Shown here piece by piece: positions 9,948 through 49,134 of a DNA stretch of 64,000 bases; position 1 is the first letter of the stretch, and each line of letters opens with the position of its first letter. The DNA lies in the NCBI GenBank assembly GCA_014871385.1, contig CM026428.1:8972772-9036771 (forward strand). The letters run 5' to 3'. The notes below the pieces were generated by a model that saw nothing but the letters and a program-made list of their open reading frames with translations, ran no database searches and was not told the DNA's origin. This DNA comes from Ceratodon purpureus. Its lineage: Eukaryota; Streptophyta; Bryopsida; Pseudoditrichales; Ditrichaceae. Position numbers and translations under genes: made by a program.

Positions 9948-12860
<2,913 letters not shown>

Positions 12861-12975: not shown

Positions 12976-13460
12976 GTTTCACATCCAGCCCAAAGGTCAA
13001 CTTTGTTGAAAACCCTAAGAATTATCAATATACAATTCCCTAACAAACCAACATATATATTTACCAATTGTCTGAATGTAGTATACTTACTTAATACACA
13101 AATAAAACACCCCACATTACACAATAGTCACCCGGATCAAGTCACACTTGCCTCCATGGTAGAACTATTACAACAAAGAACACAACCAATTACACTATAT
13201 AAAGTTAAAGCACACGTTGACATTGATGGGAACAAAGAAGCAGAGCAATTAACAAACCTAGGGACACTCAAAGCTCATAGAAAGGCTAAACACACATACA
13301 AACTGGCCCATGCCACCCCATACTACTTCCAAAAAGACGATTGGCCATCGATAATGTATGTTCAAGACAAAGGCCCAGTTAGAATACTAGAAAAACAAAT
13401 CAAGAAATATGACCGAGAAAAAAACTTAGAAATAATGGCCATGCAAACTCTCAACATTTG

Positions 13461-13572
13461 CAAATGGACAGAAAACGCAGACATAGATAATGAGCTTTCC
13501 AACAAATTTTTGGTTGCAAATGGACAGAAAACATAGAGATAGATAATGAACTTTTCAACAAATTTTGGAATA
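13461..13572. repeat. Tandem duplication, period 56 bp, inside the LINE
   Basis: CAAATGGACAGAAAAC at 13,461 recurs at 13,517, and the following 40 bases also repeat with several changes. The duplication lies in the coding part of the LINE and shifts its reading frame, so it arose after, or at the time of, inactivation. Confidence 0.85.
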
Positions 13573-26197: not shown

Positions 26198-29100
26198 ATG
26201 GCGATGGTGCAGGAGCGAGCAATGGTCCTGGCGGACGACGCCGATCCGTCTGAGGTGAGACATTTTCTCATTCTTCTTAATGTTGAATGAGATGAAAGGT
26301 TTCTGCGTTGTGTTGGTTGAGAGGATGATAGGCGAGCATGATGACTGTGTTCGTACATGGGGCTGCTTGTTCGGATGAGTACAGCGATGTTTTGGGAGAA
26401 GGAAGGTGGATCGTGTTCTGGAATTGACCAGGTGGCTTTCTTTTCTGTTAGGTTCGGAGGAGGATTGAGTGTTTGGTGAAGCTCTTTCTCAAGAGTTTGA
26501 TGGCCGAGAAGGATGTTGCGATCAGGCCGCTGTCGTTGGTAAGCAATTAACCTCGTTTGTAATCTTGAGGTTTTTTCTGTGCACCGCCTAATTTTTAAGG
26601 TGATTCGAGTTTTACGGCAATGCAGTTTGTTTGGATATATGTATGGGGATACTGTAGGCTCTTATCGAATTAGCAAGATGAAGAAAATTTAAAGGTATTA
26701 GATGAAGTCGGACGAAGTTTTGTGGCGCCGTTAGTGTCCATTAGGGCACGACAAGGTGTATGATCACATCAAATTACTGTAAAACGACCTGTAACTAGGA
26801 GCGTCACTCGCTGTGCAGGTCTGTAGAAAAGATCGCAACACGGGAGTGGACGGAGATGGTATTCACTTGATGGATGGAACGTATGAAAAAGACTTCACTA
26901 TGAAGAAATGCGGGAAAAGTTTCTTTCGAGGTGAACATAGGCTTCGACGGTTCAAACACTGGTATATGTTTGGTTTGTTTGCGACAGTGCTGTTGCAGAT
27001 TCATTGCATTGACTTATGTCTATGATCTGCAGTTTGGAAGGTGATGGAAACCTGCTATCACTTGCTTGGAATTGGAAAACAATTGACTCAGAGAGAATTG
27101 TTTTACAAGATTCTATCATCTTCAGGTTCTTACGTGACTGGCCAGAATCAAGTGAATAGCGCTATTCAAGGTAAACCTCGCTGTATCACATTATCTCCAT
27201 TGCTGTTTCTGAATTTGCACCAGTGGAAACTCATGTGACGCCAAATGTGATATTGGCGCCTTTTTGCAGATGCTGTGGCAGTACTGCTGTGCACTCGTCG
27301 GAGCCTTGGCATTCTTGCTTCAAGTAAAGGCCTCGTGGTTGGCCGCCTTGTAATCGAGGTACGAAGCTAAATTTGCATGAATTATTTGGTGGCTGTTTCG
27401 ACTCTTGTTAGATATTTTCATGTGCGTGATATTTCTAAGTATTGACAAGTTGTGATTCTTTCGAAGGAGCATGATGGAGACACGATCGACTGCAGCAACC
27501 TAGGATCAAGCGCCCATCCCATTAGCGCGGACATGAACATGAGGGAGCGATTTTACTCAGATGCGAGATACATACTTGTGATTGAGAAGGTATGATTCTA
27601 ATTTGACTTGTCTCACGATACCAGCTTCAAATGTGCGTCAAAAATCGAGGAGGAAACGTAAAGCTGATTTTGAACCTGTTAATGATTTTTCTAAAGACCA
27701 AAGATAACCTGTAGGATGCAATATTTCAAAGATTGGTGGAAGAGCGCTTCTTTCTTAAAGTGCCATGCATCATCATAACAGGAAAGGGCTTTCCGGATTT
27801 GGCTTCTAGGTACGTGAACCACGTTACATGTATTATCGGTTTGTCTTGTAAATGTTGTGACATTTTGAACGACATGCTCAAGCTAAGCAAGTACACGTAT
27901 TATGCATAGTCTCTTACTTTTGTGGCAGCTTTCTTGGTCATTTTATAATTAAATCCATGGCTATCTCGTGCAGAGCACTCCTGCATCGTTTGCACCAAGA
28001 ATTCCCGAGTTTGCCAATTTTCGCCCTTGTAGATTGGTGAGGCGGCTAGCTACTTCACTTCCAAAAGTTTCATTGCTTTTGAAGCTACATTGATGTATAG
28101 ATATTATTCCCTTAATCGAGCTGGAGCATACTTGAGTCGAAACTTCTAATACTTAGATATTGGCTGCAGGAATCCAGCGGGTCTAGCCATAATCTGCACT
28201 TACAAGTTCGGGAGCATCAAAATGGGATTGGAGGCTCCACGTTACGGTAAGTCAACATGTTGATTTGGTTGATTGGAAGCCGGCTATCCCTCGAACAGAT
28301 CGCTACAAGCATTGCCTTATTTCGCCCCCATGGAAATTGATACTTTTCGTAGTATCTTTTGAAGAGGCGGTAAAATGATCCTGTAAAGTGCATACTATCC
28401 AAATCGAAATCAGCCGAGCCTATCTTACAATCAAGATTGGCTTGTGTCCGCAGTGTGTGATGTCAAGTGGCTCGGATTGCGAAATCAAGACGCTTTGACG
28501 TACGTACCAGATAACGCTTTTACTAGCCTTACAAACAGAGATGTGACACAGGCAAGGAGCTTGCTTGCTTCAAAGATGCTCCAGGTATATCTAAACAGTA
28601 CTTGGTGTTGTAGCTGCTTTGATATACTGGAGAATCAATTGTAGATTGTTGTTCATACGAAACATATAATTGTCGCACAGAGGAACTTTTCTAAAATCCC
28701 CAAAAAGCTGAAGTATTCTCGGCTCATAGAATGATTTTCGTTTTGTAATTAAAACACGCACTAGTAGCGAAATGGTCGTTTTTCATTCCCTGAAATAGGC
28801 AAAAAGCTCTCATGGCGACATGGTTTCCACTCGGCAGCGGAGAAACGCGGGGACCTGACCTCCGAGTTCTACTGAGTGGTTTTCGTCACAAAACGACGCG
28901 GGGTGGGCCCTGTCGAAGCGCACCCTCCGTGGGTAACTTGGAACTAACTGCGCGCAAAACGTAACTCGTAAAACGTAAAACGTAACTCGTAAAACGTAAA
29001 ACGTAACTCGTAAAACGTAACTCGTAAAACTTAACTCCGGTAAACCGAGGGTAAGTGAATTCTTTTTTTTTATCCAGCCAATCGGGTTATAGGGTTTAGG

Positions 29101-32100
29101 GTGCCAGATCACCGCGTACGCCGGGATATTGGCCCGTGCTTGCTGCGTGGTATTGGCCATTCAGGTGCCAATATCTCGTTCAGGATGTCATCTTGGGATG
29201 ACATCTCATGCCAACACCCTATAGCCACGCGACAGGTGGAAGCTCGGTATTCCTCTTCAGATTTAGGGTTTCGATGAAACCTGTCCGAATTGATGAATGT
29301 TGTGTTAATGCTGGTTGGATGATATTCGTCGTGTTTGATGGATAATCCAATGATGATGTACAGACCCATTAGTCGAAGCATTTGAGTGAACTGGTTTAGG
29401 GTGAAGCTTTGCAATTGCTATTTCAGAGGGATAGCAAGACACATAAATCGCTCCAATATGGACCCGAGCAAAACGAATGGCCACCTTATACCAGAAGAAA
29501 ATTCATTTATAAATCGTCTCAAGTGAGACCCAGATCATGTACAAGTGTGAGTCCTGTTTCCCACCCAGCGATTCGAATTCATCTGGGAAAACTCCTCACC
29601 CTCCTTACGCATGAGTGCCGCTCCCATAGATGGATTCCTGTGCCTGCTTTGTTCATTATACATACCCTGAATACATTTCACATATAAAAAACGATATCAC
29701 ATGTACCGGGCTTTGCTCGAATTAAGCAAAAAAACCTTTATTCACATGCAGCCAACACATGGAGTTAGACGTTCAGTGACCATTCCCTGGGGTAGAAAAC
29801 AGGACCTCTACAGTTGACCCCGCTAGCTTCGCAAGTTCAAGGTGGCTGCAGCCGCCTGTGTCGGGGCCTTGTGCCGCTTGTATCATTACGCACATGGAGT
29901 GCTGTTATCGTCCCCTCTCTCCGCGTAAGCCAGGGTAGCCCCTGCATTGCACCGTAGTATTCACGAATCGAAACCAGAATATGGAAATTACCATATGCTA
30001 CTTGACTTTACTTACTTCAACGTAACGGAGGTGTGTGGTTTTCCAAACGATGGTGGAATCTTCGGCGAACGCCCCGTTGATAGCATCAGACAGTTTCTCA
30101 ATCCCCTCTCGCTGATGCTCGGGATACAGGACCTTCGTTGATGCATGTTGGGGGTAGACGTGCTCAACTGTCACCTGCTGCATCCCAAACTCCCACTGAA
30201 TACCTTGTACGGAGGGGATGAGTTTCTTCTTCTGTGATCGCCAGTGAGGACCGCTGCGTCCAAGGGCGACCGCTTCATTTGGATGGTCTGGGTGTAGGAT
30301 CCACACCGCACTTCGAGGTGATAGTGGAGTCTGCGGAAAATCGTTTTTACTCTTTAGTACTTGAGAGTTATCCACATTATCAAACACGCCATAATGTCCT
30401 TGAAAAGAGGTAGAGCTAGAATGGATCAGGGTTAGGGTAGTATAGCACCTTGTCTGATCGGGGCTTAAGGTCGCTCGGGGGCACACTGTCCAAATACTTT
30501 GATGGTCGTTTCGTTACGCGTCGCTTTTTATTCTCCTGCGGAACTGTGTCATCTTTCCCGCAAGATTCAGGGAGGGTCACAATCGTGCCATTGGCGCAGC
30601 CCGAAGGTGCTGCTTTCTTTAATCCAAGGGCACGTTTCTTCCCTTTATCTGCAGTGGGCTTCACGGTTTCCTTTGCTGTGGACCATACAATATTTGGGAA
30701 TATTACATTAGTTGAGACAAATAACGCCAAAGGGGGATTCTCATAACAATCGGATTCATACCTTTAGTCAACCAAGATGGGGATCAACGTTTGTACCTGT
30801 TGGCGTGGGATTCGGTGTCGTCTTCATGAACAGGTCGTCGTTGTATGCTCCGAAGGCGGCCTGCGCCGCTGTTGGCGCAGTGGTACTCGTCACTGCGTGG
30901 ATAGGCGAGTTCACTACAAGGCAGGGGTTGTCATCGTTCTTGTCTGATGGCTCGTTCGTACGAACGTGTTGTCCTACTTCGAGCGACTTCGTCTTCCTAT
31001 TGACTTCTACGGGGTCGCAGCTTGGGTTGACGGTTGTACCCCCTCCTGGAGTCATATCTGCGAGGTAAGTGGAACCCTGACTCAGTCGCACATCTCATTT
31101 GCAGCGATGGGTGTCAAAATGGGAAGCTAACATAAGTAGAGGGGCAGAGATCCCAAATGAATAGGACAAGGCCAGTTTCTTAGAAGAGTTGCTGTGATGG
31201 CATCCATACCTCTTCTCACGATACCGTATTCGGAGTCCCGACCATCGTCGGATACCCCGGATGTAGAGAATGTTTTCTGCATGTGCGGGCGCTCTCTGGA
31301 GTTGTCGGTTGTGGCCGGAGATGGTGTGTGCTCGAAATTCCCTCTTGAATTTGCCGACTTGTCAAGAACCTCCGCTGTGGCCGCTCTTGTCGAACCCTTC
31401 CTGAGGCCATTCAATTGTAGCTCCAGCAGTAGGTCAAGTTTTTTCTTCACATCAGTCATGTCCTCGGAGTTCCTCGCCATCTGCTCGGAGTTCCTCGCCA
31501 TCTGCTTATCCATGCCATCACGCCACACTGACATGTTATACATGGACGACTTCAGAGAGTTGAGTTCACGTGCGACATCTCTCGGCACTCCACCCGTGTC
31601 TCTGTGATCCACCGATCTCTCGACGTACGCAGGGCTCGCCGTAGCAAAGGTCTCGTCTCTCTGCAGCGCAGTTCTCTCTGTCAGTGAAAATAGGACTCGA
31701 CCTTCTTAACCATTCCAAGACGGTGAGACGCGTATATTGTTAACAGTGCATGCCGAGGGACACATGGAGTTCCGGATTAGTTCTACAGCTACGAATGGAG
31801 CGCGCTTACCTCTCCTGCGACTTCCACATCACCATCTCTGTTGGGTGTCTTAGATGTTGCAATCTGTTCCCAATGCGTCCAGACAGGCAAATTCAGAATC
31901 AGAAATGGAATTACGGTTTAGAGCATCGACAGACCGCAATGGTATCTACTGTAATGGACCCTGTACCTCATTAGAATAGGAGAGATCAGTGTATTCGTTA
32001 CAAGGGAATTACAAAATGGGTGTGAAGTTAATTATGCATTACTGTTTCGCACCTGTGTGTGTGGCATGTCATTCGAGGAGTCCTCCGGTGCTCCAAGTTC

Positions 32101-35100
32101 CTCAGAGTCCTCCCCCAATTCATCATCATCCCATTGGAGGTACTCCGGCGACTCTTCCGTGTCTAGTAGTGGCTGAATCGTGGTCAAAACAAGACACTTG
32201 CATATTAGCGAGGTACAGCGCTATCAGTAAGTTCTAACGCATGTTTGGTCCAACATAAGAAATGGATGCAGTGACAATCTGGAGTGGATATTGCTTACGT
32301 CCCACGACTCGTTTGAGACTACAGAATCTACGTCGGATCCCTCCGGCGCTTTCGCTTTTGCATTCCGTGCTGCTGCTCGTGCCAACTTCATTCTCCGACT
32401 CTCCTCCTCTGACTCCGCAGTGTTCCAGTACTTCACCAACGAAGGGAAGAATCGCTCCGGACATTGTCTGTGCTTCTGTCCTCGCCCAGTGGCAACCCAA
32501 TACTTTCGCCACTGGTACCGTGACGTTCTGAGTATCTCTTCTATGTACCAAGTTATGTAACCAGGTCTTAGGGATGGAGTGAAGTGGTACTGCCTGGTGA
32601 CGTCCTCCTCGACAACCTTCAGCTCGGCGTTGGAGTGGTCTCTGAAGTGTATCTTCGAAAGATCCAAGAAGCGTTTTGCAGTTGCCCTTATGTACCTGTG
32701 TACGTGAATTCGCACGCTCTTGTCGATGTCCCCCTTCTCCGTGCATGCGATGTCCATTGGGTACTGCTTAGACTTCTCGGTGAAGACCTTCTTCGCATGT
32801 CGCTGTACACGGCGCTGCGCTGTTTTTTTGGACTCCTGCCAAATGGTAGGTGCAACCTGCGAGAGACCTGGAGTGGTGGTTGTTGGAGGTTCGGGTCGGG
32901 ACGCGCTCAGTGTCAATGGGCCGCCCAAGGGACCTACTACTGGCTGATTACCACTGCTCATGCTCGTGATTTGACATCCATCTACCCACGGCGTCCACGC
33001 TATCTGTCCTGGATAATTACATTGGGAGCCCAGGGCTACCTGCACGCCATTTGCATCAAAGGATGGACCGCATGCCACAGAGGACTGTGGGCCGGCCATT
33101 GAGCTGGACCCCCTCGTTTGTCCACTGCTACTATCGAAAGAGAACACACTGGATACGCCATTGCTGACCGTAGTGCTTGGGGTGACATTGCCGCTCCCGC
33201 CAAGCATGTTCGGTTGCGCTGGGTTGTACTGCATGAGGGCCTGCGGTTGGACACGATTTCCTGGCATGTTTGCTTGCGCTGGGTTGTACTGCATGAGTGC
33301 CTGCGGTTGGGCACGGTTTTCTGGCATAGGACTGCCGTTACCCGAATTTTGCTGATGCGTCCCCGGAACAGGTTGGGATTGAACTGATGGAGGAGGGTAG
33401 CCTTGGAACAACATTTGCATTTGGTTTCCTCCTCCGATGGACGTCGTAGGAGCCCCCGGGAATATCATGGTGCCTCCCCACGGTGAAACAAACATCGGCC
33501 TCTGCTGGTACTGCGACATCGCCGGTATGCCATTGTTCACAGCGCCCTGCAAAAAAATGCACGCTTTCAGTGGGGAAAACTGACTGCAGACTTCTCACAA
33601 ACCTATCCGAAAGACTTATACACCATGAATGCTGGCTGACGACTTCATTACATAAGAGTGCAATGATCATGAATGACTACGCGGGTTACGGATCACCCGA
33701 GTTGTGCGGGACATCTTTGGGGGATCAAGGTAGGGCATACCGAGCTGTAGCTGTTGGAAGACATGTCTTCAGCTAGCTTCGAATTGCAAAGAGCCACGGC
33801 GCCAGCGAGGAAGTGTGCTGCGACCTGCGTGAGGACAGACAAAGACAAGTTAAAGCACTCCGGATCGTAACACGGGCATAAGCTAAACGAAGGAAATGCA
33901 GGACCCCAAATTGTGTAAGCGTTAAACCATAATTAATCGTGACAGGCAACATAGACTGCCAAAGGTTTAAGAAATAACGATGGCGTTCAAAGAGAACGTT
34001 CGCTCTATTACGACAACTCCAAATTCGTACAAACGCCACAGACGTAGTGGGATGAGCAAGTTTCAAAGCACGCTATTTAGTAACTACGGACTCTAAACCC
34101 CTTGCGGTGCCGCTTCTGCTGGTTCCACATCATCCTCGTGGAGGGCCTCGGGGTTTGGCACATCGACGCCATCCGCATCCGGTTCCGAGTCCCAGTACGC
34201 GGGGTTTGGCACATAGGGTACATCCGCGTCCGGTGCCAAGTCCCAGCTGTCCAGCACGTCATCTCGCTGTGAGTCTCGGAATGCTATCCACGCAGGCCAT
34301 CCGAGAAACCACTCCCGTTGAACCTCGACAAAGTCCCGCCAGCCGCGACAGACCCATCGCAGCTCCCAGCAAACTCTAAAGTTGTCGAGGTAAATTTCAG
34401 AGTCCATGATTATGGGCCAAATAACATCTTGTACAACGTCAAGAGGTAAGCCGTCAAGGAAAGCCGGAGGGGGCGGCGGAAGTTGCAAAGCACTCCCACT
34501 GTCAGGGTCTGTGTGGCCTTGGTCGTGCTGAAGTATCAACGAAGTCGGGTTCTGCACTGCCTGCTGAGGTTCTTCAGACAACGTTCGAGGGGAGGAGAGC
34601 GTCATCTCTGACGGGGTCCGCTGTACTTCCACACGGTGGTTGGCCATAGCCATGGCGTCGATGCGGAAATGAGAGATCTCGACCGAAGGCTACTCCTGGA
34701 CAAGTCACTCTACGGTCTAGGGTAGGACGGCGTTTCAATTAACGAATTCGACTTCTCGGGCGCCTTCGCAATGGATCATGAAACGTAGAAGGCACTCTGA
34801 CGCAATATACAGATGCGCTCACTCTCTGGAAACGACGATACCTAGTCTCGAAATTGACAGCGACACGAAGAGAACCCTTCCACAATGTCACACTGAAGAA
34901 CAATCACCTCTCCGTTACAAATCTGTTCACATACCTGATAAGGGTTGATCACTCCCGCTGTATCCGAAATGGGAATGGGCAGAGGTGCATCTGGTGCGCT
35001 ATCTCCCTTGTACGCATTGCAGCCGCAGGGCTCCCGCGGTGGATGACGCCGTTCTTCCAATCGGTGCTCCATTTGCGCCCTAGTCAACCTCTGGATTCTG

Positions 35101-38100
35101 AACTTAGCATGGGACAAACCACTGCTTCAGGTGTCGATCCCAAAGGCTTTTTATCAAGAGTACATTTATGATGTACATAGCAAAAATGGACTTCTAAAGT
35201 CACGGGCGCCGCACCTTCGCAAGAAATTCGGCTACTCTTTCTCCACTACTGGAGTGGCCAGTCACACGGCCTCTTCACCTCCATCACGCCATCGTACCCT
35301 ACCACAACATGCCTGACAGCCCTCGTATATCAGAGTGTCTCTTTTCGACATGTGTTGGACTACCGTAGAGTCCATCGACCATGCTCCGGTGTTTTCTCCG
35401 ACATAGCGACAATAGGGGAAATCAAATTGGACCTTTCCTAGAATTGAAAATAGCCTTGGCCAAACGGAGAGGAGAGTGTATAGACCATACCTTCAATATT
35501 TTCCTTCCGACTACCGGAGTGACTACACACTCTCTCGAGCCTGGAATACTCAATCACTCCAACGACCGTCCAGCTCTGCCTTCCCACTCTGTCCGGTAAG
35601 TCACTCCTCTGTGCTTTCTGAAACATTTGGAACCCTAATTCACGTTAGTTGCAATAGATGAGAGCCATTTCACTTCCTGTCTACTTATGCGTTCCCCAAC
35701 CACCCCTACACCCTTCTATGAATCGTCCTTTTCTATGGATCGAAAACGTCCTCGGCACCTCTCGAGGAGCGCGTATAGGAGATACCTTCAATGCTATGCC
35801 TGAGGATCACCCGAGTTCTTTCTCACTCTGCGGGGGCTGAGGGATACTCCATCACGCCAACGACTGTCCAGGTCCGTCTTCGCATTCGGTGCTGTAATTC
35901 GGTCCGTCTTCGCATTCCGTCGTGCACTATGAAGCTTCTGGAACCCTAATTCACGGTAGCTGCAACTGGGTCTACCCATTGGACATCCTGCCTCAATATG
36001 CTTTCCCCACCCTCCTCTGCCCCTTCTCTGAGTTGTTGTTTCCTGTGCCTGCGACATCGCCCGGACAAATGGAAATTCCGCAGATGTGCTGTACGTTGCC
36101 TTCCCTAGTGACGACTTAGCGGATTAGTTCTCTACTTCTTCTCGGAAACCACGGTGGACACTCATAGGCCATGTCGACAATGTAGCTTTGTGTCCAAAAG
36201 CAGGATAGTCAGTGGTCGTGAGCAAGTTAGTCAGTAGTGGACCTCGAAAACTACGACACTATCCACTGACGTCAGGACAGTAAGGGATTGTTGGGCAGAA
36301 CGTGGGATCCTATTTTATGTGTAGTGGAGATGATTTGGGTAGATTTCAAGAGTACCAGGGGGACTGTTCCGTCGATGCGATGGCCCTGACAGGTTTCTCT
36401 GACCTGATTGTTGTACCGTTTCAGACCAACACCGTACCCACCGTATACCGTATTCGAGAAACTGCTCCAAGAGTGTACTTTACTTAGGTGTTACTGTTTG
36501 TAGGGTTTCTGAAGTTGGCCATGTCCATTTGGATGTCTGTGTCTACGACATTGCAACGATCGCTGTAGCCTTTGCGATGACTTAGTTGCGCGAAACTGTT
36601 TCACTTTTTGGGACCCCTCGTGTGGGATTGCTCTGTAGCGTACACGACAATGCAGAGAGGAGTAGCCGGGGTCTAGGGTTCCCGATGGTTTGTTGAACTC
36701 TATGGAGTGCACTGCGCTCTCTTCTCGCGACGTCTGTGTGGGGATGCTAACCTCGTGGACCCACTTTGTGTTTCAGGATGGGTATGCGTTCTGTAGCAAT
36801 TTACTAGGTGTTGGGGACGTCTTTCGCTCCATTTGGTTCGCGAGATGGCGGAAAGCATTCGTAGCATGCGCCCTTCTGAGCGCAGAATTGAGGCCAGGGA
36901 GACGAAGCTGCTTAATCGGGAGATTGAGGTCGCGCAACGAGGACGCTGGAGGCGACTGCCCTGCCCCTGCAGGTTACACATGCGTGAAACAGAGCTTTCG
37001 CTGGCCAATTACCGAACATGCATTAGGAAGAACAGGAGGCATCCTTATTTCATGGGCAGCACTGAGGTGAGTTTCTATTCCAGCCGGCAGCTCTTCATGA
37101 CCCCGTCTGTATCGCTTCAATTCAATCATGGTGCGAGCGATCCTTGGCTTTTCCGCTTCTATGCGGTGTAGTTGCGCTTATTGCATATTAGGCGAAATCT
37201 TTCACTGTTTGTAGGCCGCTCCAGAAGGGGACGCCATGCCCAAGAGAATGTCCACTGTCTTTATTTATTCGTGACATGCGTAAGGGTAATTGTAGAGGCA
37301 TTGTTGGATGAATTCGTACCTATATTGCTCGTGTTCGGGATCTTCGCACCTGCTTAAATTGGGGTTATCTGTTTCCCGCAGGGCCACGATGCTGATGATT
37401 CTGATACAGAGTGGGATGACCACATATCGTGGTATTATGGGGCCCAAGCACTGGAACGCAGGCGTCAGTTGCGGCCTGGGATGTTGGACCCGGGAGTCGA
37501 CATGAACAGGATTGTAATGGAGACCTTCGATTTAGGGGATAGAATTAGGGAAGAAGCCGAAGCACAGCATCTCGAAGCCGAAGCACGGCCTCTCTCTCCA
37601 GCGCAGCATCCCGACGTGGCTGCGGATAGAGATGCGTCAGCGGAGTTGCCTCTGCCGACCAACACCGGTGAACAAGGACGCGGGGGTGTAGGTGAAGAGT
37701 CTGAAGACGGACGCCATGACGACTTCCCTGTACCAACCTCCGATGCGGAACATGACCAGGGTGCTCCCCCAGAGACGTATGAGTCGGATAGCGAAGGGAG
37801 TACTGACGAGGACGAAATGGAGTGGGGGGAGTCAGATGACGAGACTGACATATCCATCGCCGCGTTAGAAGAGGCAGCTCTCACTCCTTTATTTACCGGA
37901 TCCGTGTATTCCTGTATGGCGACAACATACTTGCTACTCAACGGCGGAAAGGTACACAAATGTACGAACGTGTACATGGACGAGCTATTCAGGTTGCTGA
38001 GTACTACATTATTTCCGCAACCTAACTCACTGCCAACGAGTTACCGTGAGGCTGCCGAGTATTTGAAGAGATTAGGCCATAGCTACAAGAGCTACGATGC

Positions 38101-41100
38101 GTGTGCGAATGGTTGCCGCCTGTTTCGTGGTGATCTGAAGAGAGCCACCGTGTGCCCCAAATGCCGGGCTCCACGGAAGAAACGGGTGGGGAAGTCAATG
38201 GTACCCCAGAAGGTCAACCGGGTGTTCCCCCTGACTCCACGGTTCAAGAGAATGTATAGAAGTCCGATCCAGGCCGCCGCGTTGACATGGCATGCACTTC
38301 AGCAGCACGACAACGAAGTGATGAAGCACGTCTCTGATTCAGCGCAGTGGCAGTGGATCAACACCCGATATTCCGCTGAGTTCGGTACTGAGGACAGAAA
38401 CATCCGAATGGCCATGATCGCAGATGGATTCAACCCCAGTGGAGACAAGCGGAGTACATACTCGATCTGGGCAGTCATGATGATGAACTATAATTTGGCC
38501 CCTTGGTTGTCCACGAAGAAATACTTTCTTATGCTCGCAGTTCTCATTCCAGGGCCGAAGTCGGTGACGCAGGACCATTTCGACGAGTTCATCGGCCCTC
38601 TAGTTGACGAGTTGCTTGAGCTTTGGACGTATGGTGTTTACTGCTTCGATGCGGCGTCGTACAAACAGTCATCCCACTTTCTGTTGAAGGCGATGGTCAT
38701 ATGGACCATCGGAGACTTTCCGGCATATGGGGTAATGGCTGGTTGCACGACGAAGGGCTTCATAGGATGCCCGGTCTGCGCAGGTGGTTACCGGTCACGG
38801 CGCTCAAAAGTCCTCCATAAAAACATCTACTGTAACTGTGCACGTAAGTTTCTGACTGAGGACCACCCCATGCGCGCGGACGTGCGTAACTTCGGCACAG
38901 TGGAGAGGGACACGGCTCCACAACCAGCCACCGGAGCCCAGGTCTTGGAATGGGGGCGTGAACGTGAACGTTGGCTTGCGGAAGAGGGAAGGCCGAGCCA
39001 GAATGATCCAGTACGCCGACACGGCATCAAACGGGTCACCGGACTGTATAGGCTTCCGTACTGGCAGGTTAGCATGGAACTTCCCCTTCGCGAGACATGT
39101 GCATTTCATTACTCTATGTGGTCGGAATGAAGTTGTTTATGTTCACGGCCAGTACCTGTAGGTGTTTATAATTGGGTGTTGATGTGCCAATATGACATGG
39201 CCAATGCAACCTGATGCTATCGGGAACCTGAAGCCCTGTATTGTACTGTGAGACGCGCCCAGGCAATACTTTGTACTTTTAACATAATGAGCTTCGAAAG
39301 TGACATCTGTAAGTCGTTATCCGATGTCGTCCGGGTGCCAGGGCTACTCGACATGATCATATTGTTCACGACTGCATAGAGTGCCTGCGGTAGGAGAGTC
39401 TGGATTCCAGAAGACCATTTCGTGGATTGGTTGACGCAGCCGGGACGCTGACTTCGAAACCTTCATTAACCAGTGAACCTGCTCGTGAATGTTTCACTTT
39501 CTTATGATGTATTGGGCCCGGGTTTGAGTGCTCTCCTGTGGTTCTTTATAATTGAGTTCTAAGTTCATTTTGCTCCCCTTACATTACGACGATGTGGTTT
39601 ATATACCAGGATTTTAACACCGTTCTCTTGGGTGCTATAAGCGATACCAGTGATTTATACGTACTGGAAACCGTGAATTCAGGGTGTGGGTCCTGGAACC
39701 ACGTACATGTAAATCTGTACGAGCACGTTTGCCCACATCTGGACTTAAGGCAGTGGACATGTAAGTTCAGTCATGGTGGGTCGTGAGAATTAGCAGTTGG
39801 TGCTTACCGCATGCCACTGCGTCAGGTTACCTTTGGGACGACGATATCATATCTCAGGCAACTGCACCAGTCCTTGTAGTAATTGCGTATACAGGTTGTC
39901 TCCTTCCCAATATACTGATGAAAATGTGCAAATGTGCAGGAATTGCCCGTGCGACATACAATAGACGTGATGCACACCGAGAAGAACGTGATTGCGACTG
40001 CCATGGGATTCGTGTTAGGTGAGAGTGACACCATAGCAGTACGTAAGGATATGCAAGAAGTTGGTGTCATGCCCGAGTTGCACCTTGTACGTCAAGGGGC
40101 GACATCGAACTACCTCAAGCCGCATGCCCCGTACGTGCTACGACCGGATGAGAAAGAGAAACTGTTGCGGACCATACGCTCGGTGCAGACTCCGACGGAC
40201 CACTGCGCAAACTTCGAGAAACTGGTCAATCTTGAGAAAGGGCGTCTCCAGTTCCTGAAAACTCACGACTGGCATATCTTAAATCAGGAGATCTTACCAG
40301 CAGCCATTCGTGGACTACTTCCGAATGGGCCCTGTGTAGCAATGATTCGACTCGGACATTCATTCAAGCTTATCTGTGACAAGATTATCAAGAGGTCGGA
40401 GCTCATACCACTTATGGACTACGTCGCAGAGACAATGGCACTGTTTGAGATTCACTTTCCACCTGCGTTCTGGAACTCCATGGGTCACCTCGTGCTTCAT
40501 CTGCCAAGGGAGCTCTACTGGTGCGGCCCTGTACATGCCCGATGGATGTACAGCGGCGAGAGGTACCTTGGTCACCTCAAGGGCATGGTCAGAAATAAAG
40601 CGAAACCAGAGGGCTCAATCGCGGAGGGTTACATGTTCGAAGAGACACTTGGGTTTGTCACGGAGCACTTTCGGTTGTATCCAGGACTTGCTCGAGTTCT
40701 CTGGGACCTAGAGGAAGACGAAAGGGACAACGGTGAGGTATTCGAGGGCAATCCAAGGGAGATCGTATGGGAGGAGAGAGACTTGGTTGCAGTTCACGAC
40801 CACATTGTCCGACACTCGCTCATCACCGAACCCTTGTTCAGGTTTCTATCCTCCCATTTGATGGCCAATCAGTTACAGTCCCTTATATGTACCCGTAACT
40901 ATGTGTCTACAGCAACTAGATTCTCACGTTTTGAATTAAATGGGCACCCTTTTATGAGCAGAGAGTACGATGCCTTAAGAAGACAGCACGAAAACAGGCC
41001 CGGCCGCCGTTTCACCCCATTCAGTACGTGGTTGGAAGACACAGTGCGAGATAGAGAGGGGGAAGGAGAAGAGGTTAGCAACGATTTGAGATCCATGTCA

Positions 41101-44100
41101 AGACTGCCGTACCCAACGGTGAAGCACTATAACTCCATGTACTCATATGGCTACCATTTCCGCACAGATAGCGAACAAGGACGTAGTAGCGTAAGTTACG
41201 ACTCCGGTGTTGCCGCGATTATTACCCAAGAGTGCCGATCGTCTAGGGCCGACCTTCACCCCGTTGAAGCTGCGCTACAGTACGTAGGCATTATATCCGA
41301 CATCATGGAGGTTGACTACGGCGTCCGGAAGTACAACGTGTTAAGGTGCTCCTGGATTCGCCCAGATCTGGAGGGCCACCGGACTATACGGCAAGACATT
41401 CACGGCTTCTGGTCAGTTAAGTTTAATGCGAGAATGCCTCTGAACGTTGAACCGTTTATACTACCCAGCCACGCCAAGCAGGTGAGTTCTGTGTTAGTAC
41501 TGATGTTTACCAGGAGTTAATGACTTTACTTACTAAAATCGTCTGGTGATTGTTCATAACTCGTATTTGAGGTCTGGTGATTGTTCGTAACTCGTATTCG
41601 AGGTCTGTGGGGAGGTTTCCGAAAGACTCCATGTGGCTGACCCTATTACAACGCGCCTCTGTCACGTCTGACTGTGTGGATGACGATCATTCAGGTGTAC
41701 TTTGTTGACGACCCGAATGATCCTGAATGGAAAGTGGTTCGGCACATAGAACCCAGGGCTCGGAGAGTCACATCAGAACGGGACGACCCAATACTTTCAG
41801 CACCAGGTCGAGCAGACGTTGTTCTAAATCCCAGGATGACAGACGATACAGTGGTCCGGGACGACTTTCCTCCCGGTGTGCCAGTTCTCGAAGTTGACAT
41901 TGAGCAAGTCATGGCATACGAAGAACGGGACGAGGAGGCGGCCTACGAAGACGACGACTACCGAGATGATAACGAGACAGAAGACGAGGGAGGCGAGGCA
42001 GATGACACCCAAGTTGAGGATGAACACGCTGAAGTTATGGACGACATGTAGTCACAGGCACCGACGGCATGGGTGTAAGTAATTTCTTCATCTTGTTTCG
42101 AGCCCTACCACTTCATATGCCGTTCCACATGATGAGGTTAACGTTTCTCTGTGGACTCCAATCGGTTGGTAGCCCGCAATTCGAATGTAGTGGAAGAAAG
42201 CGAAGGTGGTGTGGCACCTGAAGGAAGCGTGGTTCTTGTTGTAGTGGATGTCAATAAGGAACTGAACATGACTGCTTTCAATTGGACTCTTCTTCATGTC
42301 GTCCAACGAGGAGACACAGTACGTCTGCTAGGGGTTCTTCACCACATTATAAATCCAAGTAAGTCATTCTCATGGGTAGTTCGATTTGTTTTCAACGATC
42401 CCAGGGATTTTTTTCACCAATGCCGAAGACGCCCTCACTGGATTTGGCCTTAATCCTTTTTTGGTTCCCCTTTCATTTCTTGTGGTCATAGTTGCACTTC
42501 CAGTGCTAATGTAGTGTTCGAATGCATCAGCCAATTGCTGCTCGAGCAGTCGTTTCTTTGGAACTTGCGTACTGATTTCTGTGCCGTTATGCAGTGGGTT
42601 ATAGATCTCGTGCTGATGTGAGAAGCTGGAACGGAGCGAGTCGCAAGGTATTGGAACATCAGATTCAGACAAACATGGCCATATTGAAAGGCGTCCCACT
42701 TATTTACACCACGGTTGAGAAGATGGGGGTATGTGAAATCATTCTGATCTTGTTCTCGTCTGTAATCTTAACATTCATTCACAGGTTTTCACGCGCTTTG
42801 TTTGGTTAGCCCGAAGCTGAACTTCAATTCCATGATATGATAACCTGATACGTTATTAGCGAGGACTTGAAAAGCAGCTTACGACATAGCTAGGTTACCA
42901 GCTGCTATCAGAAATGTTTCTTATCAAGACTGTTTCTTCATACTTCTTAGATTGAAACCTGATACTGTAAATCCTGGGTAATTCATCTTAGCTTGTAGCA
43001 TATTCATATGTAAATGAACTAAATTGGGCATGTGCTCTTCATCCTAGCATAGTATTTCCACTACTAGGCAGGCACAAGCATAGTTACCAAACCTTTCACT
43101 GTCTCCTTTTGATGCAGGCTAAGGTGGAGATTGATGTGCGGGCTAATCCGCATTCGGAGAATCTTGTTGTAGAAGAAGCGAATCGGCTGGGTGCTCGTTA
43201 TGTGGTCATTGATAGGTTAGATGGTTTTTCTTTGCATTGTTTGAGCTCAAATTTACCAATATTGTGGATTTCGTCTGGCTTAGTCTCGGCTTTCTTTCTT
43301 CCTTATTGTGATAGTGGTTTGGAATGTGCAGGCATATTAAAAAAGATAAAAAGGTTTATATCGACAACCTTTCTTGCTACGTAACTCGGGTGAAGACAAT
43401 GACGGATTACGAGCATTTACGCCATGGAGTGCCTGTTGTTGAGGATGATTGCGTCGCGACACAGACAATGGACACTTCCAGTGGTGAAACGTCCAAGAGT
43501 ATATCCTTATTCACCTCGCAGGAGCTTTCCGTGCGAGGCTCAAATCCAGGATCCCTTCAAGCGTCGATAGCAGCGCCTACACCTATTATTGCAACTGCAC
43601 CAATGCACCATCAAATGCAGGCACCTTCCACTGCTAAACCTGCGGCTACCTTACGTCCAAGCTACTCTCACAATAACAGTAACCCCATTTACGAAGATCC
43701 TTTGCCTGTCGGAATAGAATATGGACCAGAGGCAATGGGATATTCACATCAAAGTTCCGACAGGGATGCTGCTACGATGACTCGGGAGCTTGCTGTTCGC
43801 CGCTGATTGGTTGACTCAGGTTATAGAATGGATCCTGGTTTTCATTATCAGGCACCTGATTATGGTGAGTAAATTCGAATTTTCATCGTTTTCTTTACTG
43901 AATGTTAAGTAGGTTACTGAATGTCTCATAGGCTCTCGAATGTGCGTATTGGAAATGATGTTCAATATCATATGGCCTTGTGATTTTGACATATTTACCC
44001 ATGATGGGACGATGTCTGCCACTAACTAATGATTGCCACTAACTAATGATGCGTGATTATTTTGACAGGGACAGTGGTGCTTCCCAACTGCATGGAGAGC

Positions 44101-47100
44101 ATGCAGAATGGCCGAACCTCACATCATGTGACATTCGAAATTGAACAGAAGGACAGGTGATTTCCTAAGCTGTCTCTACGTAGATGGGACTGTCCTTTCA
44201 AACATTGCACGCCATATTCACTACTTTGCTTCATTTGGTAACTTTGGAGTAGTGAGTAAAAAGAGAACATAGTAAGCCACACAGAAGAGAATTAGCTTAA
44301 CATTGACCTGCATCAGTAAACCATTTAAACAAACACTCCACAGAGCACAAAAAACTACGAACATTGTTATCAACGCTTTGGATATTTTTGCCCAAAAATA
44401 CTCAGTGGTACACTCTTACTTTGAAATCATAACTATAACTATGTATCCTCGTTTCCGCCTTAGTTCTAACATGAAATACAGAATTCAAATACCTGCGATT
44501 ATGGTGCTTCGATGTCGTATTGTTTTAATTTTTTTTTCCCATTTTCTGGTAATGCAGGACGAAATCTGCCAAGGCTTGTTCATGACCTCCCGTTCTTGTC
44601 ACATCCGAGAGGACGAGTCAGAGCCTTGTCTGGCTATCATCAAGGTAAACATCTGAAATCTGTTATCAATTACTATGATGAATCGCATTCACCCTCAATT
44701 GGACTAACTTGTGACATACTCCGTACCTCTTTCTACCCCTCAATCCAGTGACAGGTTAAGCCCATTGATGCGATGCTTTACCATTCATACAACATCAGCC
44801 ACGTTTTAACATGAGTTCCTTTTATCTTGTTATCCTGCCGATGCGAGGTTCTGCAGTCCCACGCAGTAATGAACATGATGATGACATGCCGAGGTCACGA
44901 CAGCGATCGTGAGACGAGCGAAGACGGCCACCTTCTCCACTCAAGATGATGTCAAGTCCGATGCAGCTTATCGTACCCTAAACCGCGCTCTCCCATTCCC
45001 GTGATCCCTACTTTGTGCGCAGCCTCCTCATTCCGGCAATGCAGATGCCAATCCCACGAGTTCGCTGGATGCCCGATTGCTCAATCCGTGGAGGCGTTCC
45101 AGCGCTCATAAAGAGCGCATCCTTCCCCCACAATTCCGCAGTGTCTTCACCATCTCCAGCTGGTAGGAGACCTCAGTCCGCACCAGTTCGCAGCCTCCCC
45201 ACCTCCTCTTCCATGTGCTAACTCAGGTATGGCATTTCGCAATTTGCTCTCGTCCTGTACCGCGTCCCCTCTGAGTTGCTTCGTTCTACCGTAGTTCTGA
45301 ATTCGCGTTTCGTACATCGTGTGTACCGTGTCTCGTTCTGTCTGCGCTTAGCAATTCCGTCTTTCTGCACCCCCATACTCTCTGTCCTCCTGCACTCGTT
45401 CCCCATCGAAACCTTGGAGCCCGGTGACACTGCTCTTCTAACACAGTCCGCGTATGTTACAGGAGCGACGCGAAGAACCAAGTGTTTCCCAGGGTTTGCG
45501 ATACAGGAGCCCGACCTTGTAGCAGGCCCGGAGAAGATCTGCTCTTGCACAGGTACGCCCTACTTCACAACCAGTCGACCCCCACATTGATGTAAGTAAT
45601 GGAATTCCGCATTGTCCTTTGTTCTTCTTCTGCCGCGTCCGCAAACTTTTGTATTGGTGAACCCAGAAACGCGAAAACCTCCTAACCCTAGACCTAAACT
45701 GTTGTGACCCCTCTCAATGTCTCGCAGAGTTTTGTGTGGTGAATTCCGGGTACTACGGAGTAATCGTTCACGGCATCTCTACCCGGAGTAGGTAGCAGAG
45801 GTTACTCATCCCACCCGACACGACCCTTTTGTTCGCCGCGTCTACCTGGTAAGTGCACCATTTCCCCCTCGTCATTCACGTTTTCTTTAGACATGCAGCC
45901 TATACTATAGCACATTGAGTGCTTGTTTCCCCCGCCATGGCTAATCAACAAGTTCGCTGTTTCCTTTGAGATGTATCTAATGAGTTCACCCTAAACCGCG
46001 CAGACCGGAGAGATGGCTTCCCTTCGCGAGGAAACATACCGCCTGCCTGTGAAAGGCACGAAAGATTGGATGCATAGAGATCAAGGCCTCAATGATGTCG
46101 GGTACATCCCCGGCATCCGTTTCGGTGAGACAGGCTACATGGGTTCCACCGTTGTCTCCGTCAACGACTGCATCAAACGATGGGGTCCAATGGAAGGGGG
46201 ACGTTTCCGCTACGACCGCCCAGGAAGATGCGAAAGCCCGAAGATGCAACGTTCCATTGAACTCCTATACCAGGCGACTCATCAGCGCCCCATTGGCAAA
46301 GTCAAGGCCATCGGATTGGCTTTTGCGAGGGGTTTGCTAGCCGAGAAAATGGGCTATGCCGTCGATTGGGCAGGATTTGCTATGAAGCAGTGCCGGAGAG
46401 GAAAAAAGATGAGCCTCCCATTCGAGTCGTTTGAAGATCTTAAGGCCAAGTGCGGCAGAGGAGAGGGCGTCTGGCCCGAGAATGAGGTGTTTCCGGGAGA
46501 GGAGGAGGACTTAGAAGGCGCTCCCGACGACTGGGAGATCAACAGGAATGCTCGGAAATTCACCGCAGCAAACACCTTCAACCTCGCACGTTGGCTGCAG
46601 CCCACTCCTTCCACGGATGTGGAGCGCCCGCTGTGGGGACAGAGAGTGCAGCCATCGAAGGAGCCATCACCGGACTCTACAAGCTCCGATAGCGGTGAAG
46701 AGCACGACGCGGTCATCACCAAGGGTGCCTGCAGCAGAGGTAACAATCCTCCATCCCTTCCGCATGTCCTCATTCCTTCCAAGTTTCAATTTCCAAATAA
46801 CTATTGCTGACGATCCTCGCATTCTGGTTGTTCACAGGAAAAGAGATTGAGGGCGACGATCCTAGACCGACCCCAGCCGCGAATGACTCCGACGGGGACA
46901 ACGTCTCCCCCCGCACGCATGCCGCCAACATCTCCATAGGTAGAAGACTAAACCTCCATGATTATGGTTTCTACAGCTTTGTACTTGTTTTTTTGCCAAA
47001 AATTGTAGAGAGAACATCGTATGAATGGAAGTTGTTTTAGGCAGAGAGTAACCTTGCGTATCTAACCGGGCGTTCTGATTTATAAACAGGGCACTTGACG

Positions 47101-49134
47101 CATGACGTGGGACACGAAGACAACCTTGCACGTACCTTACAGGGACACTCCCAGGGATCGGGTCCATATCCACCAGTTCGTCCCGGGAACCTAACGCAAC
47201 GCTGGCATGGTAGCACCTGCTTCTTCGAGTACCGCTCGAAATCCCCGACGATGGGGCAGGCATCCAATGTCTCTGGAAAGCGCCAGAGCGAGGAGCACAG
47301 CTACTCCGACATCACACCGGCCCGGAAGCAGAAGCACACAGAGCAGGGCGTCCGACCATGGCGTATGCACGGGAAGGAAGGGACGGGTGGGAGCGTCCGA
47401 CCATGGTGTTTGCAGAGGACGGTAGGGTCTGGTGGGAGCGCTGTGGACAACCACACCCGCGAGGATGCTGTCTACCGAAGGGCCGCAGAAGGGGCGGCTA
47501 TGGAGAATTACGTGTTGGAGCTTGGAGATAATGCAACGCCGCAATTCACCCCTCTCCGTAAACGCAACCTTCCGCTGTCTGTACCAGGCAAGATCTACAC
47601 TCTACACTGCATTTCTCGTCATTCCGACTTACCTCATTCGGAGCTTACTTTAAGAAACATTATCGATGTCTTCAAACACGATGGCTGACTTCGTTCGTTT
47701 TTGAATTCAATTCCATGCGCAGGAGCTATGGGGTCAGGAAACAGCGTAGAAGGGGTTGCCGGGGGTGTGGCTGAGAAGGAGATTATCGTCCTTAGCGACG
47801 ACGACAGTGTTTGTCACTGCTTTGACATTGTTCGAGATCTGTAAAGCGATTCAGAGTGAATGAGCAGGTTACTTCAACCTGTGATGTGTAATGAATTTCA
47901 GGTGGAAACTAAGGATGCAGAAGACGAATTCGGAGAAGAAGAAGATGACAACAGTTTCTGATTTTGCTTTTTGTTTTTGTATAAATCTCGCTCCTAGAGC
48001 TTGAGTAGAATTCCTCCTCAGAGTAGAAGCTTTGTACAGATACAGTTGTTAGTGTAACACTTCGAGTGAGTTAGGTAATACAATATTCAGGGGGAATTCA
48101 GACTAACTTCTGCCTGCCGGATGTGCTGAACCCCATAAGTATATAATGCTAGTATATCATGCCTTGGGAGTTAACTAGCGGTGAATCAGTTTTCCAAACA
48201 ATGGATACGAGAACGTTGGAAATCTGGAAGAGTATCCCTCCCATCCCTTTACTACACGGCTTCTGATTACAGCGGAACATCCAACTAACCTAGGCATCTC
48301 ATGTTGCATTTCTGCCATGTAAACGGGTCTGAACCCTATTTGAACCCTATTATAATGATATCATTACTTGGTTATCATGTCTGCACCGTTCTACTCTAAA
48401 TGAAGTATTCGTTATAACTGAATGGAAATTCGTGGTATGAGGAATTGATAACCTTTGTTTGCACGTTTCTACCAAGCCTGCTTGGAATTCGAGGTACCCT
48501 TCTCAATTTACACTTCGCCGGATGCAGTAATTATAAATTTACCCCAGTTGCTCAACTCCGCGGCACCTTCATCGCAGTAAACATACAAATTACAGCGGGA
48601 TGGGTAAACTAAAGTGGTGCTTATCACCTACGAAGCACACTGAATTCAACCATGGACCCACTGCCCTCGAAACACACGGATCCTCGGAAAAGCAGAGCAC
48701 TCTCATTGGTCAATGCAGTTTTCACAACGGGAACAGCGGACAGACGGGCGAGGGGACGGTTTTCCACAGCTCTCCAGTGGAATGCGTCAGTCTCCGGAAA
48801 CTACGAAATGAAAAACGTCAAGGTCGCTACTAGTGACGATTCAAAGTCATCTCTGATCGGAGCAGATCGAGTGCCCACTATTCGTATTATAAGTTGGCCG
48901 GAATCTGGATTGCTCTGTATGATAGAGTTAAGTTCATGAGTTGTGGATGAGAATGAGTACGAACTTGACATGGGCTTTGTGCACTTTTTACAGAACCACG
49001 AACAATTTAAGCAGGAGATACTTGAAATGCTTGCATTCAAACGAAAAGCTGAAATTGAGGCGCTATACGCTCATGGTTATGAATTTCTTGCCAAGTTCAT
49101 TACTCAAAAAATTGTTCAGAGGGATTTTATCTGA
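26198..49134 (+). CDS. SPO11-2: SPO11-2, meiotic topoisomerase-VI-A-like protein, split by a 20-kb intronic transposon
   Basis: Eleven exons: 26,198-26,254; 26,452-26,538; 26,819-26,930; 27,033-27,170; 27,270-27,358; 27,467-27,589; 27,715-27,809; 27,974-28,036; 28,170-28,246; 28,454-28,584; 48,994-49,134. All junctions are GT-AG and keep frame, giving 370 residues, close to other plant SPO11-2 proteins (about 380). VWKVMETCYHLL leads to TQRELFYK with the expected DNA-cleaving Tyr110. The Toprim part shows ILVIEKDAIF (Glu201), CIIITGKGFPDLASR and LVDWNPAGLAI (Asp254). The last exon encodes KAEIEALYAHGYEFLAKFI, the typical SPO11-2 C-terminus. SPO11-2 with SPO11-1 and MTOPVIB makes meiotic double-strand breaks in the nucleus. 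The last intron is 20,409 bp because of the CACTA element at 28,759-48,835; without it the intron would be about 329 bp. Read-through from exon 10 would add 18-20 foreign residues and stop near 28,642, losing the conserved end. Confidence 0.93.
28759..28787 (+). repeat. Left terminal inverted repeat of the CACTA element
   Basis: Twenty-nine bases beginning CACTAGTAGCGA and ending CGTTTTTCATT pair with 48,807-48,835 at 25 positions. All mismatches lie in bases 13-18. Confidence 0.95.
28956..29037. repeat. Subterminal repeats of the CACTA element
   Basis: CGTAACTCGTAAAA occurs four times, at 28,960, 28,981, 29,002 and 29,016, with extra AAAACGTAAAA spacers between some copies. Short direct repeats just inside the ends are the known binding sites of the TnpA-type protein in En/Spm elements. 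No equal cluster was seen at the right end, so the two ends look unequal. Confidence 0.75.
29998..33764 (-). CDS. TnpA-like CACTA protein (Transposase_24-like and TNP1-like regions)
   Basis: Seven minus-strand exons, 33,764-33,741, 33,546-32,299, 32,172-32,053, 31,660-31,210, 31,057-30,797, 30,675-30,449 and 30,330-29,998, join in frame to about 887 residues. Exon 2 begins with Gln/Pro/Gly-rich sequence containing a repeated NRVQPQALMQYNPAQ unit. It continues with a conserved block (SLRPGYITWYIEEIL, CPERFFPSLVKYWNT) of the kind found in plant Ptta/En/Spm Transposase_24 proteins. A Gln/Met/Lys-rich region with MARNSEQMARNSEDM and LDLLLELQL looks coiled-coil. A basic stretch (KKRRVTKRPSKYLDS) follows. 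The last exon (SAVWILHPDHPNEAVALG...EGIEKLSDAINGAFA) resembles the TNP1 domain. Such proteins bind subterminal repeats and assist the transposase. The eight-residue first exon is the least certain part. Confidence 0.7.
34093..34653 (-). CDS. F-box-like ORF carried by the CACTA element
   Basis: A single open frame of 186 residues starts with MAMANHRV and ends in a stop. After a low-complexity head come FLDGLPLDVVQDVIWPIIM and LRWVCRGWRDFVE, which follow the spacing of an F-box (LP..V...I...., then a C..WR.. end). F-box proteins bridge targets to SCF ubiquitin ligases. The tail, rich in Asp, Pro and Tyr, repeats the VPNP unit (YVPNPAYWDSEPDAD, DVPNPEALHEDD). It lies upstream of the TnpA-like gene on the same strand and could be a captured host gene or an element gene. 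The F-box call rests on eye matching only. Confidence 0.45.
   Translation of the reverse strand: MAMANHRVEVQRTPSEMTLSSPRTLSEEPQQAVQNPTSLILQHDQGHTDPDSGSALQLPPPPPAFLDGLPLDVVQDVIWPIIMDSEIYLDNFRVCWELRWVCRGWRDFVEVQREWFLGWPAWIAFRDSQRDDVLDSWDLAPDADVPYVPNPAYWDSEPDADGVDVPNPEALHEDDVEPAEAAPQGV
34654..36844. promoter_or_regulatory. Spacer between the divergent element genes, with degenerate tandem repeats
   Basis: About 2.2 kb separates the minus-strand F-box-like/TnpA-like side from the plus-strand transposase and must contain their promoters. Positions 35,230-35,960 hold three degenerate copies of a unit about 270-300 bp long. Shared landmarks are TCCATCACGCCATCG near 35,279, TCAATCACTCCAACGACC near 35,550 and TCCATCACGCCAACGACTG near 35,847; GGAACCCTAATTCACG also recurs near 35,628 and 35,940. 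No coding frame of substance is seen. Confidence 0.5.
36845..42051 (+). CDS. CACTA transposase, TNP2/TnpD type (Transposase_21)
   Basis: Four exons, 36,845-37,066, 37,382-39,067, 39,940-41,481 and 41,695-42,051, join in frame at GT-AG sites to 1,268 residues, with no internal stop. After an acidic head come YDACANGCRLFRGDL and CPKCRAPR, a cysteine motif typical of the family, then MAMIADGFNPSG, YSIWAVMMMNYNLAPW and SHFLLKAMVIWTIGDFPAYG. GFIGCPVCAGG and YRLPYWQ cross the intron to ELPVRHTIDVMHTEKNVIA, the RHxxDVMHxEKNV hallmark of TNP2 proteins. The C-terminal half matches DUF4218 (HLPRELYWCGPVHARWMYSGERYLGHLK, shown here in parts). The last exon (VYFVDDPNDPEWKVV) matches the DUF4216 end and closes in an acidic tail. 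It cuts and joins the element ends as a DDE-type nuclease. The element looks potentially autonomous by this gene; exon 1 is less certain. Confidence 0.9.
42190..43806 (+). CDS. Captured USP/adenine-nucleotide-hydrolase-like domain of a plant receptor-like kinase family
   Basis: Four exons join in frame: about 42,190-42,359, then 42,593-42,728, 43,118-43,216 and 43,332-43,806, with GT-AG borders. The product reads SVVLVVVDVNKELNMTAFNW, TLLHVVQRGDTVRLLGVLHH, a middle part with DVRSWNGASRKVLEHQIQ, then EEANRLGARYVVIDRHIKKD and YIDNLSCYVTRVK. This order fits the universal-stress-protein-like domain at the N-terminus of plant RLCK/PERK-like (often inactive) kinases. A Ser/Pro-rich linker follows and the frame stops before any kinase domain. 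It lies inside the CACTA element, just downstream of the transposase, so it is most simply a host gene piece picked up by the element. Start codon and first exon edge are unclear. Whether it is expressed is unknown. Confidence 0.6.
43807..44760 (+). other. Possible further exons of the captured gene
   Basis: Three short coding-like blocks with splice borders follow the stop at 43,806: near 43,828-43,862 (MDPGFHYQAPDY), 44,070-44,157 (LPNCMESMQNGRTSHHVTF) and 44,557-44,644. They may belong to the captured kinase-like gene if an alternative splice skips the stop. No domain is recognised and the joins are not certain. Confidence 0.35.
44761..46012. other. CACTA internal spacer before the accessory gene
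   Basis: About 1.25 kb of G+C-rich DNA with overlapping short frames on both strands and no recognised product. It probably contains the promoter and leader of the gene that starts at 46,013. Several CAG-ended, pyrimidine-rich stretches could be acceptors of leader introns. Confidence 0.4.
46013..47961 (+). CDS. Unrecognised CACTA accessory protein with a C-terminal SUMO-interaction-type motif
   Basis: Five exons, 46,013-46,739, 46,838-46,939, 47,090-47,587, 47,723-47,808 and 47,902-47,961, join in frame to 490 residues. The third donor would be GC rather than GT (CCAG|GCAAGA). The first 150 residues look folded and unlike any family I recognise (YIPGIRFGETGYMGSTVVSV, RSIELLYQATHQRPIGKVKA, GLAFARGLLAEKMGYAVDWA). 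A middle region is Ser/Pro/Asp-rich, with a tandem VRPWRMHGKEG / VRPWCLQRTVG repeat near residues 355-395. The C-terminus has EKEIIVLSDDDS, a hydrophobic I-I-V-L core followed by acids as in SUMO-interacting motifs, then an acidic end. It lies at the right side of the element, opposite the TnpA-like gene. Some CACTA elements carry a SUMO-protease-like gene; this protein is not one. Confidence 0.6.
47962..48806. other. CACTA right subterminal region, no gene
   Basis: About 850 bp between the last accessory-gene exon and the right TIR. It is less G+C-rich than the coding part, carries no open frame with a motif, and shows no repeat array as clear as that at the left end. It should hold the 3' end signal of the accessory gene. 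Confidence 0.5.
48807..48835 (-). repeat. Right terminal inverted repeat of the CACTA element
   Basis: Reading inward on the minus strand it begins CACTAGTAGCGA and ends CGTTTTTCATT, mirroring the left end. The flanking ACG at 48,836-48,838 repeats the left flank. Confidence 0.95.

Follow-up and report, generated by a model that had tools for sequence, protein, structure and literature searches.

A 20-kb CACTA Element in the Last Intron of SPO11-2 in the Moss Ceratodon purpureus

Large CACTA Elements in Plant Introns

CACTA elements of 13–20.5 kb have already been published from the introns of plant genes. Tgm9, an element of 20,548 bp, lies in intron 2 of soybean DFR2 (the w4-m allele) and disrupts its host gene; it is active, excises and interrupts pigment production, and the same element later struck a meiotic gene, MER3 (St8), where it sits in exon 10 (PMC4773125, PMC4015899). 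Tgmt*, a 20.5-kb element in intron 1 of soybean F3'H, likewise disrupts its host gene with a known mutant phenotype. It is flanked by a 3-bp duplication, has imperfect 13-bp terminal inverted repeats (TIRs), and carries a gene opposite in direction to that of the host (PMC2613891). The soybean MYB gene R holds a 13-kb element in intron 2. In the less methylated, mutable line RM55, which carries TgmR, the R gene is disrupted and the line is variegated; in the more methylated revertant RM30-R*, RNA-Seq showed that splicing around TgmR* is accurate and reduced in amount (PMC4219821). In Arabidopsis, IBM2, EDM2, and AIPP1 handle heterochromatic transposons that lie inside genes, and the first two are likely to keep early polyadenylation within such transposons suppressed (PMC10241880). 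Among mosses, Sphagnum has 6.8% of its genome in elements of the CACTA superfamily (PMC9946827).

The locus described here, from the moss Ceratodon purpureus, is a further case. The window, by which we mean the whole stretch of DNA analysed (C8:8,972,772-9,036,771; 64,000 nucleotides), contains a gene that we infer to be SPO11-2 from its domains, structure, and length, and whose product is thought to start meiotic recombination. One CACTA (En/Spm) element fills most of intron 10 of this gene (Table 1). The element shares with Tgm9 an intronic position, a length of about 20 kb, and an association with a meiotic gene, although Tgm9 is an active element of a flowering plant and entered MER3 through an exon (PMC4773125, PMC4015899). 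The intronic position, the size, and the 3-bp duplication are shared with Tgmt*, which differs in its shorter TIRs and in its orientation relative to the host gene (PMC2613891). TgmR resembles the moss element as a large intronic CACTA, but it is shorter, and its splicing was followed by RNA-Seq (PMC4219821). Within the parts of the literature on SPO11-2, moss meiosis, and CACTA introns that were seen, no description of the moss insertion was found; the Ceratodon genome paper may annotate it.

Table 1. Coordinates, in the window, of the SPO11-2 gene, its last intron, and the parts of the CACTA element.
Feature	Position	Strand	Remarks
SPO11-2 exons 1-10	26198..28584	+	Nine introns of 99-280 bp; in-frame splice joins, all GT-AG; the joined protein matches Pfam TP6A_N and TOP6A-Spo11_Toprim
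SPO11-2 intron 10	28585..48993	+	20,409 bp; donor CAG/GTATAT (no G at +5), acceptor TTTTTACAG/AA
Left target-site duplication copy, ACG	28756..28758		Read from sequence
Complete CACTA (En/Spm) element	28759..48835	+	20,077 bp; transposase gene oriented like SPO11-2
Left terminal inverted repeat, 29 nt	28759..28787	+	Inverted-repeat pair
Subterminal tandem repeats, AAAACGTAACTCGT type, near left end	28953..29041	+	Repeat listing
ORF of 456 aa, probably all or one exon of an accessory gene	32227..33594	-	No Pfam match; low dN/dS
Transposase block 1, 590 aa open	37358..39127	+	Pfam Transposase_21 (tnp2), E 1.1e-56
Transposase block 2, 532 aa open	39922..41517	+	Pfam DUF4218, E 1.4e-28; DUF4216 below cut-off
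ORF of 271 aa	45995..46807	+	No Pfam match; dN/dS of 0.15-0.30 in four sibling comparisons, the C5 copy containing two stops
Right terminal inverted repeat, 29 nt	48807..48835	-	Inverted-repeat pair
Right target-site duplication copy, ACG	48836..48838		Read from sequence
SPO11-2 exon 11 and stop codon	48994..49134	+	Residues 325-370, the Toprim domain end

The SPO11-2 Gene and Its Copies

The gene spans 26,198-49,134 and has 11 exons. When the exons are joined in the window sequence, they stay in frame, as the first-pass annotation had proposed; all 10 introns are GT-AG, and the result is an open frame of 370 codons plus stop (CDS of 1,113 bp including the stop). The protein matches the Pfam families TOP6A-Spo11_Toprim (E 4.8e-45) and TP6A_N (E 7e-12), as well as solved archaeal TopoVI A subunits and the SPO11 chain 8urq. 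Its best structural match is 2zbk, an archaeal topoisomerase VI A subunit. Land-plant SPO11-2 genes have 10 conserved introns, with named exceptions, and the Physcomitrella gene agrees with the one described here in its 11 exons, 10 introns, CDS of 1,113 bp, and 370 residues, the values of Table 2 in that work, the text of which gives 372 residues once; an insertion comparable to the present one is absent from the parts of that paper seen (PMC4071758).

Without the element and one copy of the ACG, intron 10 measures 329 bp, so that its present length is 62-fold greater, in good agreement with the position and the roughly 60-fold enlargement first reported for it. The G at +5 that is missing from its donor is also missing from two of the nine other SPO11-2 donors. 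Reading through from exon 10, a stop is reached after 19 intron-encoded residues, for a product of 343 amino acids (324 + 19). The importance assigned earlier to the last exon is supported as follows. Exon 11 aligns to positions 125-170 of the 170-position Toprim profile, although in the genome search it scores by itself only 21.9 bits, below the family cut-off of 24.1, and it belongs to the conserved part of the protein because the alignment with 2zbk runs to the last residue.

A second intact SPO11-2 had been named as an observation that would count against the original reading, and it was looked for across the whole genome (362,488,568 bp in 151 contigs). None was found by DNA, protein, and Toprim family searches in which the best candidates were scored with introns unread, a search that a very divergent copy could escape. 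The protein search (E up to 10) returned 12 matches, namely 11 parts of the gene on C8 itself and one intronless frame on C13. The Toprim family search returned seven, with one on C13, two on C8, and four in a split gene on C5. An extra exon 11 was also sought; the window contains it a single time, and the only two other loci examined that contain it were cut from that same place.

Several other loci were rejected as second copies. The sequence at C3:18244151-18245160 is a broken relic with stops and frame changes; it contains exons 2-5 of SPO11-2 with their introns (the equivalent of 26,363-27,370 in the window) in three pieces at 70-83% DNA identity, and is perhaps an old segmental copy. The C13 locus, at 14,084,327, is an intronless frame of 436 residues that is 36% identical over residues 88-370, and would be of the TOP6A/SPO11-3 type. 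The split gene at C5:16,393,562-16,394,881 would fit SPO11-1 instead.

The CACTA Element, Its Genes, and Its Relatives

The element has TIRs that begin with CACTA, a 3-bp target-site duplication, and a tnp2/TNPD-type transposase, three features of CACTA (En/Spm) elements. The TIRs match at 25 of 29 positions, are identical over the first 12 nt (CACTAGTAGCGA), and form the longest inverted pair in intron 10 among the matches listed. Subterminal tandem repeats are clear at the left end only. Both the CACTA identity and the ACG duplication claimed by the first-pass annotation are thus borne out; the junction coordinates that it gave, 28,758 and 48,836, are the flanking bases, and the element proper runs from 28,759 to 48,835. 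By blastn (E up to 1e-3), the element has no similarity to the rest of the window. Elsewhere in the window, a plus-strand ORF at 12925-13536, which may be the part of a retrotransposon that encodes RNase H, lies near a 93-bp TA run at 11308-11400.

Genes had been reported on both strands of the element. On the plus strand, the Transposase_21 match leaves the presence of a transposase gene certain. Coding sequence was further assessed by dN/dS between this copy and four of its five siblings (C13, C9, C5, and C6a). Block 1 gives values of 0.18-0.20, with no stops in the four siblings and one gap that is not a multiple of three (in C6a). Block 2 gives 0.13-0.28; C9 and C6a have a single stop apiece, and each sibling has three to five such gaps. 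A one-intron join between the two blocks was sought and none was found; therefore, autonomy is not claimed for this copy.

The minus-strand part of the claim stands less firmly. The ORF at 32,227-33,594, the candidate for a second, TNPA-like gene, has a dN/dS of 0.23-0.32 against the four siblings, and its values of 0.25 against C5 and 0.24 against C6a compare with 1.53 and 1.27 for the plus-strand shadow frame. It is a probable gene and no more than that because stops occur in some siblings (none in C13, one in C9, one in C5, two in C6a), along with three or four gaps that are not multiples of three. The other three of the four control shadow frames have dN/dS values of 0.38-0.53 against C5 and C6a. 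It follows that a dN/dS of that size proves nothing and that, for this element, dN/dS by itself says little about coding; the remaining minus-strand ORFs range from 0.32 to 0.77 in the same comparisons. Since stops or out-of-frame gaps are present in siblings for several ORFs, conservation of the frame among siblings is not claimed for those.

The element belongs to a family with many copies. Its transposase region has at least 58 DNA matches in the genome, with the best 40 of 398 candidates scored. The TIR pattern, allowing up to two mismatches, is found 41 times in the forward and 38 times in the reverse direction, against 0 and 0 for a reversed-pattern control in the same genome. Counted by eye, six pairs of TIRs lie 19-23 kb apart, i.e., this element and five siblings, and all six are flanked by a perfect 3-bp duplication: ACG for this copy, ATG for C13, AAG for C9, CAA for C5, CAT for the C6 copy at 0.56 Mb, and ATG for that at 67.0 Mb. 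In a six-way alignment that includes a badly aligned segment at about 41.8-43.8 kb, C13 is 95.3% and C9 is 93.0% identical to this copy, and the three remaining siblings are 73-74% identical to it.

Comparison of the siblings also reveals differences in structure. The 1,809 bp of the element at window 42098-43906 have almost no blastn counterpart in the five siblings; only the first 83 bases match C9, and the C13 sibling has an unrelated 1,073-bp stretch in their place. We read this interval as a swappable internal segment. In 1-kb steps, the C8 and C13 copies differ by 0.5-3.1% over about 29.8-41.7 kb versus 4.3-6.7% at about 43800-47800, a step suggestive of mosaic descent or of gene conversion among family members.

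Two of the siblings lie on contig C6, which at 110,524,308 bp is far longer than C3, C5, C9, and C13 (16-25 Mb); the U and V chromosomes of Ceratodon purpureus exceed 100 Mb each in a 360-Mb genome (PMC8000587). These full-length copies, C6:562329-581485 and C6:67029778-67052593, are 99.55% identical over 19,156 columns, with the second being 3,659 bp longer. Their likeness may be read as very recent movement or duplication on a probable sex chromosome. The ends of a much smaller unit were also seen. Fifteen pairs of opposite-facing CACTAGTAGAGAACCTGACGTTTTCCATT ends, a few with one base changed, lie 161 bp apart on several contigs (e.g., C2:14703583-14703743, C5:6257292-6257452, and C6:22626543-22626703), as counted by eye with only the ends read. 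These units form a very uniform, tiny, probably non-autonomous relative of the CACTA family.

Age of the Insertion and Fate of the Host Gene

The age of the insertion was estimated from substitutions private to each copy. The three-way alignment of the C8, C13, and C9 copies has 18,495 columns, 16,413 of which pass a local-quality filter. In the filtered columns, the C8 copy has 166 private substitutions (1.01%, interval 0.86-1.17%), C13 has 167, and C9 has 599; the unfiltered C8 value, 318 of 18,495 (1.72%), is raised by the badly aligned segment. If substitutions accumulate at 5-9.4e-9 per site per year, a divergence of 1.01% corresponds to 1.1-2.0 million years. This is a maximum for the time spent at the present site, since some of the divergence could predate the entry of the copy into SPO11-2. 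Gene conversion could distort the estimate. The insertion at the SPO11-2 site would then be recent, with an age of at most roughly 1-2 million years.

The first-pass annotation had gone on to suggest that the gene seems to tolerate the insertion. This does not follow from the open exons. From the private substitutions and the four private indels retained by a flank filter, we calculate a probability of 0.91 that exon 11 would be open even if it had no function, and of 0.47 that the whole CDS would be. With private divergence at about 1%, an open frame of exon 11 is therefore expected either way and is weak evidence for function.

We propose that this is probably a recent CACTA insertion that is transcribed through and spliced out as part of the intron, as follows. 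A cut-and-paste CACTA/En-Spm element entered an intron that was once 329 bp long, leaving the ACG duplication, in the only intact SPO11-2 found in the genome and with no damage to the splice sites or to either coding part. RNA polymerase II would read through the element, which is probably methylated or silenced, and the spliceosome would join exon 10 to exon 11 across 20 kb, possibly less efficiently, as the soybean TgmR* revertant leads one to expect. The role of IBM2 and EDM2 in Arabidopsis is in keeping with such read-through (PMC10241880). Any transcript terminating soon after the start of the intron would specify the 324 residues plus 19, and its product would be without the end of the Toprim domain. 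Several points tell against the proposal. The transposase gene is oriented like SPO11-2, so that the SPO11-2 transcript could be captured by the acceptors and the poly(A) site of that gene. The intron 10 donor has no G at +5. Tgm9 and Tgmt*, the elements nearest in size, disrupt the genes that hold them, as does TgmR in RM55.

The insertion may instead have produced a weak or null allele of SPO11-2, a less likely but serious possibility. Such an allele could persist in a moss, whose haploid gametophyte can multiply vegetatively and whose diploid sporophyte, the site of meiosis, could obtain the protein from a normal copy inherited from the second parent. Such an outcome would match the disruption of soybean DFR2 and F3'H by intronic elements of 20.5 kb (PMC4773125, PMC2613891), and exons of this age would often be open in any case, but the splice sites and the frame are intact, and the revertant line with TgmR* shows accurate splicing (PMC4219821). 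It is tempting to consider that methylation of the element switches the formation of meiotic breaks on and off, in the manner of an Spm-suppressible allele. The silenced element would allow exon 10 to be joined to exon 11 and SPO11-2 to be made, and the active element would block the transcript through its own transcription or through protein binding. We consider this improbable; if it were true, a single transposon would, through its epigenetic state, set the rate of recombination.

A related idea is that a shortened SPO11-2 ending in the intron has a role of its own and that the element switches between the two forms. Alternative splicing and intron retention are abundant in plant SPO11 genes, and the stop that follows exon 10 would generate a form of this kind; however, most such forms are called seemingly non-functional (PMC4071758), and the 46 residues that would be lost are the end of a Toprim domain that aligns through to the C terminus of 2zbk. 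This idea appears very improbable. Finally, an element from a multi-copy family could have been placed in the gene by an assembly join. The exact TIR-to-TIR extent of the element, its matching target-site duplication, the absence of N from the window, the private differences from the siblings, and the CACTA ends and perfect duplications of the five siblings themselves argue against such a join, which we find hardly credible.

A gene that still functions would provide a clean test of how far splicing in plants can reach over a transposon within a meiotic gene, and one that has failed would be a natural mutant of SPO11-2 in a plant with a dominant haploid phase and large UV sex chromosomes. In both cases, the locus joins the published cases of intronic CACTA elements of about 20 kb, here in a moss.
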